From Arcanobacterium phocae (GTDB taxonomy: Bacteria; Actinomycetota; Actinomycetes; Actinomycetales; Actinomycetaceae), in the NCBI RefSeq assembly GCF_900105865.1, contig NZ_LT629804.1, positions 1,426,001 to 1,490,000 on the forward strand: a stretch of DNA of 64,000 nt, read 5' to 3'. Numbering within the stretch: the first letter of the stretch is position 1; each line of letters opens with the position of its first letter. The notes below the pieces were generated by a model, which saw only the letters and a list, made by a program, of their open reading frames with translations, had not been told where the DNA came from and made no database searches. The position numbers were made by a program, and so were the translations under genes. Positions 54,390 to 64,000 of this stretch are shown piece by piece.

Positions 54390-54728
54390 ATGGCTACTGA
54401 TCCACGTCTTGCTTTCGAAAAACTGCGGTTAGCTCTTGATGAGTTCCACGCTGCTGCCGTCACCTACCGGGATGCAGATGCACCTGAGGTTATGCGCTAT
54501 GCGAACCGGCTTGCGGACGCGTACATCATGTATGACGATTCGTTGTTCACCCATTATGGTATTGAAGCGCCATTTGATACTTTTGACGAAGACGATTTCT
54601 ATGATGATGACTTAGATGACGTCGATGACGAAGACGATTTTGACGACGACGATTTCGACGACGAAGACGATCTCGATGATGAGTTTGATGACTATGATGA
54701 AGACGAGGATGAGGACGAAGAATTGTAA
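54390..54728 (+). CDS. small protein with Asp-rich tail
   Basis: 112 residues of unknown function. Residues 1-60 form a helical domain (PRLAFEKLRLALDEFHAAAV, ANRLADAYIMYDD); residues 65-112 are almost wholly Asp and Glu with interspersed Phe/Tyr. Such tails mimic nucleic acid or bind cations or basic proteins; which applies here is unknown. Flanked by its own leaderless-type promoter and a terminator, so it is a single-gene unit. Confidence 0.7.
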   Translation: MATDPRLAFEKLRLALDEFHAAAVTYRDADAPEVMRYANRLADAYIMYDDSLFTHYGIEAPFDTFDEDDFYDDDLDDVDDEDDFDDDDFDDEDDLDDEFDDYDEDEDEDEEL

Positions 54729-58223: not shown

Positions 58224-59309
58224 GTGAATAATTATCCTCATCCTTTGGGCGCTGAGCGCCGCCGTGGCCCCTTTCGTGCTGGCGAACGTGTACAGCTGAC
58301 CGATACCAAAAACCGGAAATACACCGTTATGCTCACGAAAGATGGGTATTTTCAGTCCCAGCGTGGAAGTTTTCGTCATTCTGAGCTGATTGGCAAGGAA
58401 GAAGGAACAGTTTTAGACACTGATTCTGGACATCGCTTACTAGCGCTTCGACCGCTGATCAATGATTATGTTTTGTCGATGCCGCGCGGAGCAACAGTTG
58501 TCTATCCAAAAGACGCGGGCCAGATCGTTCAGCAGGCAGACGTTTTTCCAGGTGCACACGTGGTGGAGGCAGGTCTAGGTTCGGGGGCATTAGCACTGTC
58601 ATTGCTCTCTGCCATTGGCATGGATGGGCATCTGACATCCGTGGAACGACGTGCTGAATTTGCCGAAATCGCACAAGCTAATGTGGAATCATGGTTCGGC
58701 CCGCAGCTACCACCGTGGGATGTTGTTTTAGGAGATCTCGACGACGTACTTGCCAGCATGGATGAAGGCAGTATCGACACTGTCGTGCTCGACATGCTTG
58801 CGCCATGGGAGAACATTTCATCCGCAGCGCATGCTTTGCGCTCTGGCGGTGTCATTATTGGATATGTAGCTACGACTACCCAGATGTCTCGCTTCGTTGA
58901 AGATCTGCGTGCATCCGAATGCTTCACCGAACCGGAGTCCTCCGAAACAATGGTTCGCACGTGGCATCTTGACGGTCTATCGGTACGCCCAGATCATCGC
59001 ATGGTGGCACATACTGGGTTCCTTGTTGTAGCGCGGCGAATTGGACGCGACTCTGCGCCACTGGTTCCGACGAAACGCCCAGCTCCGGCTGCACATTCGC
59101 AACCTCTAGCTTGGGAAAGTGACGATTTTAAAGAGCGAACTATTTCGGAGAAAAAGCTTCGTAAGGTTCGGCGCGATGTTGCACGGAGGGCAGATACCGA
59201 ATTATCCGGTACCTCGCTTGCTGGGAACCATAGTGTGGCGATGCAAGCCAAGCTGGATGCAGAATCGCAAGCCCGATTGGCCGCTAGGAAACAACAAGCT
59301 GACAACTAG
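58224..59309 (+). CDS. trmI: tRNA (adenine-58-N1)-methyltransferase TrmI
   Basis: Makes m1A58 in the T loop of tRNAs. 361 residues: N-terminal beta domain (RAGERVQLTDTKNRKYTVML), SAM-binding EAGLGSGALALSLLSAIG near 117, and DVVLGDLDDVL and TVVLDMLAPWENI. The C-terminal 90 residues are a charged extension. First gene of the block leading into arc-dop-pup-pafA, as in mycobacteria (Rv2118c). Spaced 8 bp from arc. Confidence 0.93.
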   Translation: MNNYPHPLGAERRRGPFRAGERVQLTDTKNRKYTVMLTKDGYFQSQRGSFRHSELIGKEEGTVLDTDSGHRLLALRPLINDYVLSMPRGATVVYPKDAGQIVQQADVFPGAHVVEAGLGSGALALSLLSAIGMDGHLTSVERRAEFAEIAQANVESWFGPQLPPWDVVLGDLDDVLASMDEGSIDTVVLDMLAPWENISSAAHALRSGGVIIGYVATTTQMSRFVEDLRASECFTEPESSETMVRTWHLDGLSVRPDHRMVAHTGFLVVARRIGRDSAPLVPTKRPAPAAHSQPLAWESDDFKERTISEKKLRKVRRDVARRADTELSGTSLAGNHSVAMQAKLDAESQARLAARKQQADN

Positions 59310-59317
59310 AGAGATGT

Positions 59318-60841
59318 ATGAGTACTCAAGAACCTGATCTACGCACGCTCGCTCAACAGAATCGTGAGCTGAGTAAAGCCTTAGGAAGCGCTCGAGACCG
59401 AATAAAAGAGCTAAGTAATCATCTCGAATCTTTGTCTAAACCGCCGAACACTGTCGCGGTGTTTATATCTGCTAACGTCTCGCAACACACTGCTCTCGTT
59501 TTCCAGTCCGGAAAGCGAATCGAAGTTACTGCAGCGGCATGGATTTCGTTTGATAATATTCGTCCTGGGCAAAATGTTTTGCTCAATGAACGTCAAGTTA
59601 TTGTTGGTGTGGGCTCATATGGCAAGGTAGGGCAGGCCGTAACAATTGACCATCTAATTGGCACGGATCGGGTTTCTGTTACTGCAGCTGGTGGCGAAAG
59701 CCGGATTGTTCAGCTTGCCGGGCGTTTATTCGAGCAAGGTGTGCGCGTTGGCGATCTCGTCCTCGCAGATCTCACATCCGGTTTTGCTCTCGAAAAACTT
59801 GATCGTGCGGATGTATCCCACTTGTTGTTAGAAGAAACTCCAGATGTTTCGTATTCCGATATTGGCGGATTGTCTTCCCAGATTGAACAACTACGGGACG
59901 CGATTGAGCTACCATTCCGCCACCCAGAGCTTTATCGCGAACACGGCTTGAAGCCACCTAAAGGAGTCCTTCTTTATGGCCCTCCTGGAGTTGGCAAAAC
60001 ATTAATTGCGCGAGCAGTAGCGACCTCGTTATCTCGAATGTTTGGCGAAGACAGTGCGTATTTCCTCAATATTAAAGGCCCGCAGCTGCTCGATAAGTAC
60101 GTTGGACAAACCGAGCGGCAGATTAGGGAGATTTTCGATAGAGCACGTCAAAAAGCTACCAGTGGAATACCGGTGGTGATCTTTTTTGATGAAATGGAAG
60201 CGTTGTTCCGCACCCGCGGATCGGGTATTTCGTCCGACGTCGAAACGACTATCGTTCCGCAACTATTAGCTGAAATCGACGGTGTAGAAGCACTCGATAA
60301 CGTCATTATTATCGGTGCGTCTAATCGTGAAGACATGATTGACCCAGCTATCTTGCGTCCCGGGCGTTTGGATGTAAAAATTCATATTTCGCGTCCTACC
60401 TACAATGACGCAATCGATATCTTGGGGAAGTATCTGGTTCCCACGGTCCCGATTCATGAATCAGAACTTGCCCAGTATGGGTCTGTGGAAGCAGCAATTG
60501 CCGGAATGATTCGGGCAACTGTGGATAACTTATGGCATGAGGGTCCGCAAAACGCGTATGTTGATGTTACCTACCAAGATGGCACGAGCGAAACACTGTA
60601 TGTCCACCATTTGGTTTCTGGTGCTATGTTGGCAGCTATTGTTGAGCGTGCTAAAACATTTGCTATTAAAGATGTTTTGGCAACCGGCGAAAAAGGAGTA
60701 CGAACTGAACATCTGCTTAGGGCAGTGCGTGCTGACCTCGCTGAGAATGAGACTCTAGCCCACGTGGATAATCCCCGCGAATGGGCACGAGTACATGATC
60801 GGCACGATGTTGTGGCGGTACACCGCCTGCGGCAAGCGTAA
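59318..60841 (+). CDS. arc: ARC/Mpa AAA ATPase of the pupylation system
   Basis: 507-residue hexameric AAA ATPase that binds Pup through its N-terminal coiled coil and unfolds pupylated proteins. Coiled coil at about 5-45 (LAQQNRELSKALGSARDRI), tandem OB domains about 50-160, Walker A GPPGVGKT near 221, Walker B VIFFDEMEALF near 286, and arginine-finger region DPAILRPGRLDV. The protein ends EWARVHDRHDVVAVHRLRQA: the C-terminal extension with the Gln-Tyr-Leu docking motif used by Mpa to open the 20S proteasome is missing. This suggests function without a proteasome core. Confidence 0.94.
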   Translation: MSTQEPDLRTLAQQNRELSKALGSARDRIKELSNHLESLSKPPNTVAVFISANVSQHTALVFQSGKRIEVTAAAWISFDNIRPGQNVLLNERQVIVGVGSYGKVGQAVTIDHLIGTDRVSVTAAGGESRIVQLAGRLFEQGVRVGDLVLADLTSGFALEKLDRADVSHLLLEETPDVSYSDIGGLSSQIEQLRDAIELPFRHPELYREHGLKPPKGVLLYGPPGVGKTLIARAVATSLSRMFGEDSAYFLNIKGPQLLDKYVGQTERQIREIFDRARQKATSGIPVVIFFDEMEALFRTRGSGISSDVETTIVPQLLAEIDGVEALDNVIIIGASNREDMIDPAILRPGRLDVKIHISRPTYNDAIDILGKYLVPTVPIHESELAQYGSVEAAIAGMIRATVDNLWHEGPQNAYVDVTYQDGTSETLYVHHLVSGAMLAAIVERAKTFAIKDVLATGEKGVRTEHLLRAVRADLAENETLAHVDNPREWARVHDRHDVVAVHRLRQA

Positions 60842-60854
60842 TAATGGAGATTTT

Positions 60855-62381
60855 ATGACGATTAAACGCATCGTTGGTCTGGAAACGGAATTTGGCATTC
60901 TTGATGCCGATGCTCCTATTCAAGATCCATTCAAGCTCAGTGCTGACATCATTGATGCCTACGTCAGAGAATCCGGTCAGCCAGTTGCGGCATGGGATTT
61001 TTACTCAGAAGATCCACTCAATGACGCACGTGGCTTTCGAGTTGGCCCGCACGTGGTTCGCCCTGACCAACTGACAAATAATCCGGTTCCGCCACTGTCA
61101 ACTCTGCCTTCTCATGTTGCCGCAACGAATACGGCGGTGAGTAATGGCGGGCGTTGGTATGTTGACCACGCGCATCCAGAGTATTCCAGTCCCGAAGTTA
61201 CGAATCCTTATGATGCGGTGCTATGGGACCGAGCTGGGGAAGAGATCGCTCGTCGTGCGATGTCGTTGTTGTCTCGTCGTGGCCGCCATATCGTTATGTA
61301 TAAAAATAATGTGGATGGTAAAGGCGCAGCGTATGGGAGCCACGAAAACTATCTGGTATATCGCAACGTACCTTTTAACGACATCATCCGCTATCTCACG
61401 CCGTTCTTTGTGTCTCGCCCAATCCTATGCGGAACTGGCCGGGTCGGTCTGGGACAAAGTTCGCAAGGCGTTGGCTTTCAGATCTCGCAACGAGCCGATT
61501 ATGTAGAAAACGCAGTCGGGCTGGAAACAACGTATAACCGGCCGATTATTAATACCCGCGATGAGCCACATGCGCCGTCGAGCAAATACCGTAGACTTCA
61601 TGTTATCGGTGGTGACGCCAACCAGTTTGATTACTCCACCTTGTTGAAGATTGGTACGACTAATCTTGTTTTGTGGATGCTTGAGCAAGACGCGATGCCG
61701 CTTGATCTCGAGGCGTTAGTATTATTTGAACCGGTTGCGGCGACCTGGGAAATCTCTCATGACCCCACATTACGCAGAGCGGTTGATATGCACGATGGTT
61801 CAACGCGAACTGGACTAGATATCCAAGAAATTTATCTTGATGCCGTGCGAACAACATTAGAACGATGCGGAATTGCTGATCAAGAAACGAATCATTTTAT
61901 TAAGTTATGGCAAGACACCATAGATACTTTGAGGCGGGATCTTTTTGCGGCAGCTTCTCGTATTGAATGGGTAGCGAAGTACCGTATGCTTGACCGAATG
62001 CGGGTTCGTCGTCAGCTGACTTGGGATGCAGACCAGCTACGCGCATTCGATCTGCAATGGCATGATTTACGTCCAGACATATCGATTGTCAACCGTCTTG
62101 ATGCGGCTGGGCAAGTCGATCGGTTGTTTGATCACGACGACGTTCTCCGCGCAATGCACACAGCACCTGTTGATACCAGAGCATTCTTCCGTAGCGAGTT
62201 GCTAAAACATTATGGTTCCGATCTTCTTACGCTGGGATGGACATCAGCACAACTAGCCACTCCTACTGGACCGCAGCGATTGAACTTTAACGAACCGCAG
62301 TATCCGAACCAACATCAGATCCGCGATTTCTTTACCTCGTCGCGAAGTGCTATGTCTACTATTGATACGTTTACTATGTGA
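60855..62381 (+). CDS. dop: Pup deamidase/depupylase Dop
   Basis: Glutamine-synthetase-fold enzyme that deamidates the Pup C-terminal Gln and removes Pup from substrates. 508 residues; N-terminal RIVGLETEFGILDADAPIQD with the catalytic region, DHAHPEYSSPEV, and HMFKNN-like HIVMYKNNVDGKGAAYGSHE. ATG at 60855 with ATGGAGA upstream, 13 bp after arc. Homologous to PafA downstream. Confidence 0.95.
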   Translation: MTIKRIVGLETEFGILDADAPIQDPFKLSADIIDAYVRESGQPVAAWDFYSEDPLNDARGFRVGPHVVRPDQLTNNPVPPLSTLPSHVAATNTAVSNGGRWYVDHAHPEYSSPEVTNPYDAVLWDRAGEEIARRAMSLLSRRGRHIVMYKNNVDGKGAAYGSHENYLVYRNVPFNDIIRYLTPFFVSRPILCGTGRVGLGQSSQGVGFQISQRADYVENAVGLETTYNRPIINTRDEPHAPSSKYRRLHVIGGDANQFDYSTLLKIGTTNLVLWMLEQDAMPLDLEALVLFEPVAATWEISHDPTLRRAVDMHDGSTRTGLDIQEIYLDAVRTTLERCGIADQETNHFIKLWQDTIDTLRRDLFAAASRIEWVAKYRMLDRMRVRRQLTWDADQLRAFDLQWHDLRPDISIVNRLDAAGQVDRLFDHDDVLRAMHTAPVDTRAFFRSELLKHYGSDLLTLGWTSAQLATPTGPQRLNFNEPQYPNQHQIRDFFTSSRSAMSTIDTFTM

Positions 62382-62396
62382 TCTCGAGGAGCAACA

Positions 62397-62576
62397 ATGA
62401 GCGAACAAGAATTTATCCGTCCCCAAACCGAGTCAGTAACCGAGGATGATATCTATGCTGGACAGGGGGAAGCCGCCCCTTTTGATGTCGATGCATTATT
62501 AGATGATATTGACGAGATCCTCGAAACAAACGCCTCGGCTTTTGTCCAAGGTTTTGTACAAAAGGGCGGCCAGTGA
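62397..62576 (+). CDS. pup: prokaryotic ubiquitin-like protein Pup
   Basis: 59-residue protein modifier attached to lysines by PafA. Mostly acidic and disordered, with the helical ARC-binding segment VDALLDDIDEILETNASAFV, and ends GFVQKGGQ. The terminal Gln means it must be deamidated by Dop before ligation. Ribosome site GAGGA; its stop overlaps the pafA GTG by 4 bp. No prcB or prcA follows. Confidence 0.97.
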   Translation: MSEQEFIRPQTESVTEDDIYAGQGEAAPFDVDALLDDIDEILETNASAFVQGFVQKGGQ

Positions 62577-63943
62577 ATCGGCGTATTATCGGCCTTGAGA
62601 CAGAGTACGGATTGGCGTGTTCAGACTCTCAAGGCGCCCATGTTGATATAGATCCGAGCGAGATTGCTCGAAGTCTTTTCGCCGATATGCAACAGGCGTC
62701 CGGTGCTACATCAGCATTTTTAGCTAACGGTGGTCGGTTATATCTAGATGTCGGCGATCATCCAGAATATGCGACGGCAGAGTGTCAGCACATTATCGAT
62801 CTTGCAAGCCAAAATCGTGCTGGCGATCAACTCCTGCGGGATATGGCGGACAAAGCTTCCGCTACCTTGGGCTATCATATCCATCTATTTAAAAATAACG
62901 TTGATACAGCTTCACATTCATACGGATGTCATGAAAATTATCTGGTTCGACGACGGCGCGATTTTCTTGATCGGTTAGCAGAGCTAGTTCCGTTTTTCGT
63001 TACACGCCAGCTGCTAGTTGGTGCCGGCTATGTTCATCGTGAACCGGGCACAGTACGTTTTGAGCTTTCTCAGCGTGCCCGTCATATGCACAATTCCATT
63101 TCGACATCATCCACTCGTACCCGACCAATGATTAACACTCGTGATGAACCGCATGCAGATGCAGATAAATATCGCCGGATGCATGTGATCGTCGGGGATT
63201 CAAATATGAGTGATACGACTACTTTGCTGAAAACCGGAATGACTCATGCAGTGCTCAATGTTATGGAAGATGGTGTTCGGCTACCAGCATTTCCGTTGGC
63301 AGATCCAATGCAAGCAATCAGAAGTGTTGCCCAAGATTTGTCTGGAAATATTTTGCTACCGTTGGCTGACGGCTCTACGATTCGTGCCATTGATATTCAA
63401 CGAAAGATATTCGATACTGTTCTTGAGCACTATACTCGTCAGGGATGGCTCGCTGGTCTCGATAAAACTACACGGTATGTTTTTGACTTATGGGGCCGTG
63501 CTCTTGATGCGTTTGCAACGAGTAATTTTTCAACGGTGCATACTGAAATCGAGTGGATTGCGAAATACGAACTGATCACTCGCTATCGCCACCGGCATAA
63601 CGTTGCCCTCAGTGACGATCGAATTACCCGTCTTGAACTGGCGTGGCACGATATCTCTGCAGGCGGACTACGCGACAGATTAGAACAGATAGGGATTCTC
63701 GCACGTCGAACTACACCCTCGATGATTCAAAGTGCTCTCGATTGGGCACCGAATGATTCGCGGGCGTTTATTCGTGCAAAGTTTATTCAGGCTGCACATC
63801 GTCATCATCGCGACTATGCAGTCGATTGGGGACTGGTGCGTTTGTTTAACGATGGAAGCGGAACGACGATATCTTTGACCGATCCGTTTGCCCCGGAAAA
63901 TGGAGCTGTTGACTCATTAATCGAATCTATGGAGAAGCAATGA
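62573..63943 (+). CDS. pafA: Pup-protein ligase PafA
   Basis: Glutamine-synthetase-like ligase joining Pup Glu to substrate lysines with ATP. 456 residues: RRIIGLETEYGLACSDSQGA, LYLDVGDHPEYATAECQH, and IHLFKNNVDTASHSYGCHEN. GTG start overlapping the pup stop. In mycobacteria prcB and prcA lie between pup and pafA; here the genes overlap directly. The next gene starts in its stop (ATGA). Confidence 0.95.
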   Translation: MNRRIIGLETEYGLACSDSQGAHVDIDPSEIARSLFADMQQASGATSAFLANGGRLYLDVGDHPEYATAECQHIIDLASQNRAGDQLLRDMADKASATLGYHIHLFKNNVDTASHSYGCHENYLVRRRRDFLDRLAELVPFFVTRQLLVGAGYVHREPGTVRFELSQRARHMHNSISTSSTRTRPMINTRDEPHADADKYRRMHVIVGDSNMSDTTTLLKTGMTHAVLNVMEDGVRLPAFPLADPMQAIRSVAQDLSGNILLPLADGSTIRAIDIQRKIFDTVLEHYTRQGWLAGLDKTTRYVFDLWGRALDAFATSNFSTVHTEIEWIAKYELITRYRHRHNVALSDDRITRLELAWHDISAGGLRDRLEQIGILARRTTPSMIQSALDWAPNDSRAFIRAKFIQAAHRHHRDYAVDWGLVRLFNDGSGTTISLTDPFAPENGAVDSLIESMEKQ

Positions 63944-64000
63944 ACAAGGTGTTAGCTGCGGCGATGGCAGTTGTGGCATTCTTCGTCGGCATAGGCATAT
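63940..64000 (+). CDS. start of a probable exported protein (partial)
   Basis: Twenty codons begin MNKVLAAAMAVVAFFVGIGI, a short basic start followed by a hydrophobic stretch, so a signal peptide or lipoprotein leader. The start overlaps the pafA stop. In related actinobacteria an FKBP-type peptidyl-prolyl isomerase is often found in this position; that identity cannot be seen here. Confidence 0.55.
   Translation, partial: MNKVLAAAMAVVAFFVGIGI

Follow-up and report, generated by a model that had tools for sequence, protein, structure and literature searches.

What becomes of the AAA ATPase ARC, whose C-terminal tail has to our knowledge no partner other than the 20S proteasome core, once that core has been lost? 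The question is raised by a pupylation locus of Arcanobacterium phocae, an animal-associated actinobacterium, which lies at positions 59318 to 63943 of a 64,000-nucleotide stretch of its genome (contig NZ_LT629804.1; the whole stretch is called the window below) and encodes ARC, the depupylase/deamidase Dop, Pup and the Pup ligase PafA. Proteasome-less pupylation is already known from Corynebacterium and bifidobacteria, and the locus is of this known kind; what is new is a tip of ARC that selection preserved in relatives of A. phocae even though the only partner known for it was gone, and that was then lost in the lineage of the window. The reading favored here, which is probable rather than assured, is that of a functional-looking, proteasome-independent module, in which the core would have been lost first, the tip of the relatives would have been redirected, and the window lineage would have become tail-less, with ARC acting as a stand-alone unfoldase.

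The arc gene (59318..60841, forward strand, like the other genes described) encodes 507 amino acids that match TIGR03689 with 674 bits (cut-off 505) as well as PF17758, PF16450 and PF00004, have 7LJF and 7PX9 as top PDB matches and align with Mpa over the N-terminal helix, which places the protein in the ARC/Mpa family. By motif reading, Walker A (GPPGVGKT, 59978..60001) and the pore loop (KYVG, 60095..60106) are intact. The final codons (60812..60841) read VAVHRLRQA followed by a stop, so that the protein ends in HRLRQA and not in a GQYL-type 20S docking motif, at about the point where the long tail of its relatives begins; only 16 residues follow the conserved W-x-R, compared with about 43-101 in relatives whose tail ends in -GLI. 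The initial annotation had described this end correctly and had added that the whole C-terminal extension was gone, which holds for the flexible tail past the last conserved strand, but not for the preceding beta-grasp region, which is kept. The hairpin of this region (60575..60589) reads QDGTS, where most 20S-positive relatives have A[NSG]GD[KRST]; according to one paper, the hairpin (ANGDK in M. tuberculosis) contacts the 20S and is well conserved only in 20S-bearing species (PMC8755798). A sequencing frameshift at the end of arc is ruled out by similarly short ends in five other genomes of the genus, as ARC stops within a few residues of the window's end in the 99%-identical L001 and in L086, L087, L288, and L289. 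The nearest named relative is A. phocae strain 20171, with an ARC 99% identical to that of the window.

A profile search for PF00227, the 20S core family, gave no match in the single-contig genome of 1,998,242 bp to which the window belongs, in any of the 20 genomes of its family within a sample of the order, or in any of the 200 genomes (36 genera) of a wider family sample, whereas the identical search was positive in 144 of the 248 genomes of the order sample and hence works there. A hidden or remote 20S in the window genome is ruled out by these results. Bpa (PF10759) is also absent from the window genome and from the 20 family genomes. The lack of prcBA, on which the initial annotation had based a pupylation system without proteasome, is thus true for locus and genome but is not peculiar to the locus, since the whole sampled family is without these genes, and the best explanation places the loss of the core in the family's ancestor or earlier. 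PF00227 was also searched for in the genomes of 50 of the 80 named ARC loci and was found only in Auraticoccus and Raineyella, and in both ARC ends in -GQYL. Published sources already describe actinobacteria that lack a proteasome and have no Bpa either (PMC8223512, PMC4254994, PMC6017811).

That ARC loses its -YL key after the loss of its lock is the rule across the order, as was found when ends from 20S-positive and 20S-negative genomes were compared. An ARC match was obtained in 223 genomes of the sample, and 157 ends were read from 155 of them (two genomes gave two ends); by our count these cover the 20S-negative side in full (82 genomes, 84 ends) and 73 of 141 genomes on the 20S-positive side. 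A YL end is present in 60 of the 73 20S-positive ends (six others are L-phi and seven of other types) vs. three of the 84 20S-negative ends (five L-phi, 76 other). The L-phi exceptions are confined to two places, namely the window's family, which holds all five of the 20S-negative ones, and family f6, which holds all six of the 20S-positive ones and is identified as Brevibacterium from the names of the closest proteins. One row of the table of ends (G079) was probably read in the wrong frame. Divergent PF00227 matches (best E 1.8e-27 and 1.7e-25) occur in G112 and G224, from a family with two 20S-positive members out of 18 (f11), both without Bpa and without an ARC key. Two ARC loci in one genome were seen in G201, in G229 and in the metagenome-assembled genome S5R_St_27, where both loci (L047 and L048) lie on the same contig, each with its own dop, pup, and pafA, giving two complete pupylation operons. 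Three record titles mismatch their ARC and the records are probably mislabelled: L030 (Sanguibacter keddieii) and L037 (Xylanimonas cellulosilytica) have the same ARC end as Schaalia odontolytica (L038), and L062 (Trueperella pyogenes) clusters with Actinomyces/Schaalia.

In the window's family, tails of variable length that end in -KGLI, -EGLI, -DELI, -DSLI, -GLV and similar tips are found in Trueperella, Ancrocorticia, Peptidiphaga, A. haemolyticum, A. pluranimalium, A. bovis, and many metagenome relatives. The tail, tip and tree sets consist of 86 sequences, what remained of 180 when redundancy at 92% identity was removed; L016, P0101, and proteins of <500 amino acids were excluded, as was L024 from the tip counts. 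Protein-only rows (P identifiers) and a few loci unsearched for PF00227 were taken as 20S-less by kinship. Among the 46 long-tailed ARCs taken as 20S-less, the last residue is L, I, V, or M in 43, and 37 have one of these residues at both of the last positions. The 37 non-redundant -GLI-type ends (17 from genomes searched and PF00227-negative, 20 known as proteins only) have Leu at -2 in 35 cases, Gly at -3 in 33 and W or F at -10 in 28, with just one W in the 24 positions before -10. On a tree of the ARC core, positions -1, -2, and -3 of the 37 tails changed 7, 2, and 4 times, vs. 23-30 times for positions -17 to -34, so that the tip is conserved in these relatives to a degree resembling ordinary ARC core columns (median 2, third quartile 8, 482 columns). 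The Leu at -2 is written by five codons in 17 loci (CTG 7, TTG 4, CTT 3, CTC 1, TTA 1, plus one ATA for Ile), which argues for selection at the protein level. Judged by sequence, the -GLI tail probably derives from the tail that docks on the 20S; Georgenia-like 20S-less members still end in -IETITPAAGYL, -GGYL, and -RDYL, and within the -GLI clade one member has the end -VETIEPAGTQGRI. We infer that the 20S key -GQYL was replaced by -[GSE]L[IVLM] in this family, and that the new tip has stayed conserved through docking of the exit face of ARC on some partner that is not the 20S.

The second contact points the same way. A[NSG]GD[KRST] is present in 9/10 20S-positive rows, 3/3 Georgenia-like YL rows and 1/6 20S-negative rows with other long tails, as compared with 0/37 -GLI rows and 0/30 short rows, and a decayed hairpin with a retained tip is as expected if the tip serves another role. 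A recent loss of the 20S as the sole cause of the kept tips is plausible for the Georgenia-like rows and for G292, with its YL tip and intact hairpin, but less so for the -GLI clade, in which L098 alone keeps even the G-D of the hairpin. In the 2.5-Mb genome of G292 (one contig, locus L153), neither PF00227 nor Bpa was found, yet ARC retains a -GTYL end and the hairpin ASGDK, and from its sequence this genome looks like a case of recent 20S loss.

Within the GTDB genus of the window, the tail is lacking in six of the nine genomes read, where ARC ends directly after the last strand (G000, G387, G375, G399, G131, and G145), and is kept in three (-KEGLL in G264 and G406, -KKGLI in G413). In the tree, the window group, a trio, joins the -GLI rows L002, P0075, P0077, and P0078 with 97/96 support, and together with these neighbors sits within larger supported groups that consist mostly of -GLI rows. 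The window subclade is nested in a tail-bearing clade, hence the loss of its tail came secondarily, after that of the core, and was probably one event. Over the ARC tree, the -LI label changes nine times, for example by one gain and eight losses.

Downstream of arc, dop starts 13 nt after the arc stop (60855..62381; 508 amino acids, TIGR03688 538 bits, cut-off 492, aligned with 4B0R), followed by pup (62397..62576; 59 amino acids, TIGR03687 61.8 bits, cut-off 41.5) and pafA (62573..63943; 456 amino acids, GTG start), which overlaps pup by 4 nt; the consecutive order and the absence of prcB and prcA from between these genes had been reported correctly by the initial annotation. PafA scores 522.8 bits for TIGR03686, under the curated cut-off of 551.3, yet residues 2-453 of 456 align with the PafA chain 4B0T, and segments that we take to be nucleotide-binding and catalytic are kept in PafA (compared with 4B0T) and in Dop (compared with 4B0R). 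Pup ends in GGQ and, by the known chemistry of Pup, requires deamidation by Dop. In the favored scheme, ARC would have kept its C-terminal tail when the 20S was lost at or before the family ancestor, and after the shift of the tip the window lineage would have lost the tail. PafA would tag proteins, while Dop would deamidate Pup, depupylate and recycle Pup. The tail-less ARC ring, with intact motor and Pup-binding coiled coil, would be unable to stack on a protease by its tail, and most likely it would thread or disassemble pupylated proteins and then release them; release without degradation, as had been proposed from the locus, is plausible on this analysis.

The order in mycobacteria is mpa-dop-pup-prcBA-pafA. 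The window locus resembles this arrangement in its arc-dop-pup-pafA order and its enzymes, and differs in lacking prcBA, Bpa, and the GQYL tail and in its altered 20S-contacting hairpin (for the mycobacterial Pup-proteasome gene set, see PMC8223512). It is of the Corynebacterium type in combining pup, pafA, dop, and arc without a 20S, and C. glutamicum shares with it Pup, PafA, Dop, and ARC without 20S and a short ARC end (...CHARVVN in Corynebacterium spheniscorum, L072). The loss was probably independent in the two, and a -GLI tail, kept by the relatives of the window, is absent from both Corynebacterium loci that were read (L072 and L080). In C. glutamicum, pupylated ferritin is opened in an ARC-dependent manner without 20S, according to two reviews (PMC5515868, PMC8223512). 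In contrast, the sole PF00210 protein found in the window genome is Dps-like (closest PDB entry 2Z90) and no ferritin proper, hence the ferritin model is not directly transferable, and the substrate would be another protein or Dps itself. The -GLI ARCs of Arcanobacterium, Trueperella, and Ancrocorticia are of the same family as that of the window, with the same operon and no 20S, but have the long tail, usually with W or F at -10, and the L-I end.

Brevibacterium offers a comparison in which the core is still present. PF00227 was found in 18/18 genomes (the best match in G220 is partial) and Bpa in 17/18, unlike in the window genome, which has neither. All 11 Bpa C-termini that were read end in -GNYL, so the 20S pocket presumably still accepts the tyrosine key. 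Like the window's relatives, Brevibacterium has degenerate ARC hairpins (ANGRR, ADGSK, ATGQR, ADGRR, and VSGKK were found) and ARC without a tyrosine key (YL end in 0/18), and in 15/18 a non-tyrosine hydrophobic tip, -[SP]DL[VL] or -SSLI; the other three ends are cut short. Tyrosine is not strictly required for 20S binding by all activators, as stated for the eukaryotic 11S (PMC6017811), and the Brevibacterium tips therefore indicate an ARC diverging on its own path, and are not proof of its leaving the 20S. A wider proposal, which is possible but tentative, is that ARC switched partner in two separate lineages, namely the Arcanobacterium-Trueperella-Ancrocorticia group, which has no 20S, and Brevibacterium, which has one: -GQYL would have given way to a second docking tip, -[GSDE]L[IVL], with hairpin decay in both, the tip would plug ARC into another assembly (e.g., ClpP1 or a chaperone), and the window lineage would later have lost the second dock, leaving ARC free. 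A full-text search, with subscription journals mostly outside its reach, found neither the -GLI tip of Actinomycetaceae nor the -SDLV tip of Brevibacterium described.

Several points weigh against a redirected tip and a stand-alone ARC. Most 20S-negative ends (76/84) are without a YL or L-phi tip, and L-phi occurs in only 5/84, which suggests that the function of the tip is dispensable. The tip could bind a site within ARC itself, and the fast evolution of the whole module in the window clade, given below, could be decay rather than a sign of a stand-alone role. No obvious partner candidate was found among the clusters of open reading frames (ORFs) around 27 loci, 19 tail-bearing and eight tail-less, with some flanks short. 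A downstream hisF-like cluster, adjoined by his/trp-like ORFs (named by eye), is present at 17/19 tail-bearing and 2/8 tail-less loci; it is taken as a probable clade difference in gene neighborhood rather than as a partner.

An unlikely alternative is that ARC passes pupylated proteins to another compartmental protease, ClpP1P2 being the likeliest, through the tail in the relatives and through the body of ARC in A. phocae, so that pupylation would still mean degradation. A conserved C-terminal tip is what a docking tail requires, and PF00574, the ClpP family, is found in 20/20 family genomes, with at least two genes in 19. The remaining genome has a single partial clpP match at a contig start of a draft assembly (G253:C41:1-396), and a second copy may be missing from the assembly at contig ends. 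Known ClpP unfoldases dock through internal LGF-type loops and not through their C-termini, which counts against a C-terminal dock on ClpP. The outer face of ClpP1, for its part, has no known partner according to one source (PMC10149685), and this counts in favor of ClpP. Additional PF00574 genes in the tail-bearing G264, G052, G286, and G159 were considered as tail partners and rejected; of the five such loci that were fetched, the two that were read (G264 and G159) are flanked by portal-like and capsid-like genes, with roles assigned by eye, and their products are probably prophage prohead proteases. G297, which has a -GLI tail, has no extra ClpP copy, and a further adjacent ClpP pair is present in G117, whose ARC tip is -ARL.

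It is also rather improbable, and ranked after the ClpP route, that selection on the module of the window has relaxed and the module is being lost, with tail loss and fast evolution as signs of decay. The distances to Georgenia are raised in the window clade (three loci) for ARC (0.60-0.63), Dop (0.64-0.68), and PafA (0.90-0.92), as compared with 0.44-0.53, 0.47-0.61, and 0.67-0.79 in 17 tail-bearing loci, while those of the control TrmI are not (0.42-0.43 vs. 0.41-0.56); the score of PafA below its NCBIfam cut-off also fits decay. Against decay stand an uninterrupted ARC frame in each of the six tail-less genomes read in the genus, motor motifs (Walker, pore loop) kept in L001, L086, and L087 as in the window, Dop and PafA found in L001, L205, and L206, and Pup confirmed in the window and L001. 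The clear rate effect is limited to the window clade, and is taken as a changed or relaxed duty following tail loss. That tail loss speeds up ARC in general was rejected: between the 17 tail-bearing and 10 tail-less loci, which are related to each other, ARC (p=0.00015) and PafA (p=0.0097) differ, but no difference is seen in the ARC/TrmI ratio (p=0.11) or in the Dop and TrmI distances.

There is very little chance that the -KGLI end is a DNA-level by-product of the Shine-Dalgarno sequence and start codon of dop. The start of dop overlaps or abuts the arc stop in 11/16 -LI loci (in L013 and L031 by visual judgment), AARGGA, a possible ribosome site, frequently encodes K-G, and GGA stands at -3 in 11/17. 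Such a site may account for K and G but not for L-I, as Leu and Ile vary mostly synonymously, and it leaves the frequent W or F at -10 unexplained; moreover, where dop starts 9-93 nt downstream (L007, L008, L015, L023, and L046), the ends are still ELI, GLV, SLI, GLI, and GLI. Finally, the proposal of the initial annotation that the tail was lost together with the core agrees with the order-wide association of YL ends with the 20S, but for this lineage it is hardly tenable, given its nested position, the three of nine congeners that bear a tail without 20S, and a family-wide absence of the core in which Trueperella, Ancrocorticia, Peptidiphaga, and other Arcanobacterium keep the tail.

The gene used as rate control, a TrmI-like tRNA methyltransferase (58224..59309; PF14801/PF08704), is the conserved upstream neighbor of arc (30/30 loci), and a RecB-like nuclease gene also lies upstream, with its ORF cluster in 27/27 compared loci. 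At 54390-54728, the window encodes a small protein that matches no family and whose long C-terminal half is rich in Asp and Glu, and similar ORFs occur at 19/27 neighboring loci. At the other end, pafA overlaps the start of the next gene by 4 nt (window 63940-64000); the copy of this gene in L001 (L001:14623-15492) is FKBP-like (PF00254, 23 bits) with a hydrophobic N-terminus, and the overlap indicates that the operon probably continues past the window.

For the handling of pupylated proteins by ARC without a proteasome, the ferritin case aside, a conserved short tip gives a handle, as it can serve as a bait peptide, and the window subclade, in which the tip is lost, is a natural negative control. 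Brevibacterium, with -GNYL on Bpa and -SDLV on ARC in one cell, separates docking on the 20S from the present role of the ARC tip. If the tentative proposal of a partner switch in both lineages is true, pupylated proteins would have a destination that is not the proteasome.

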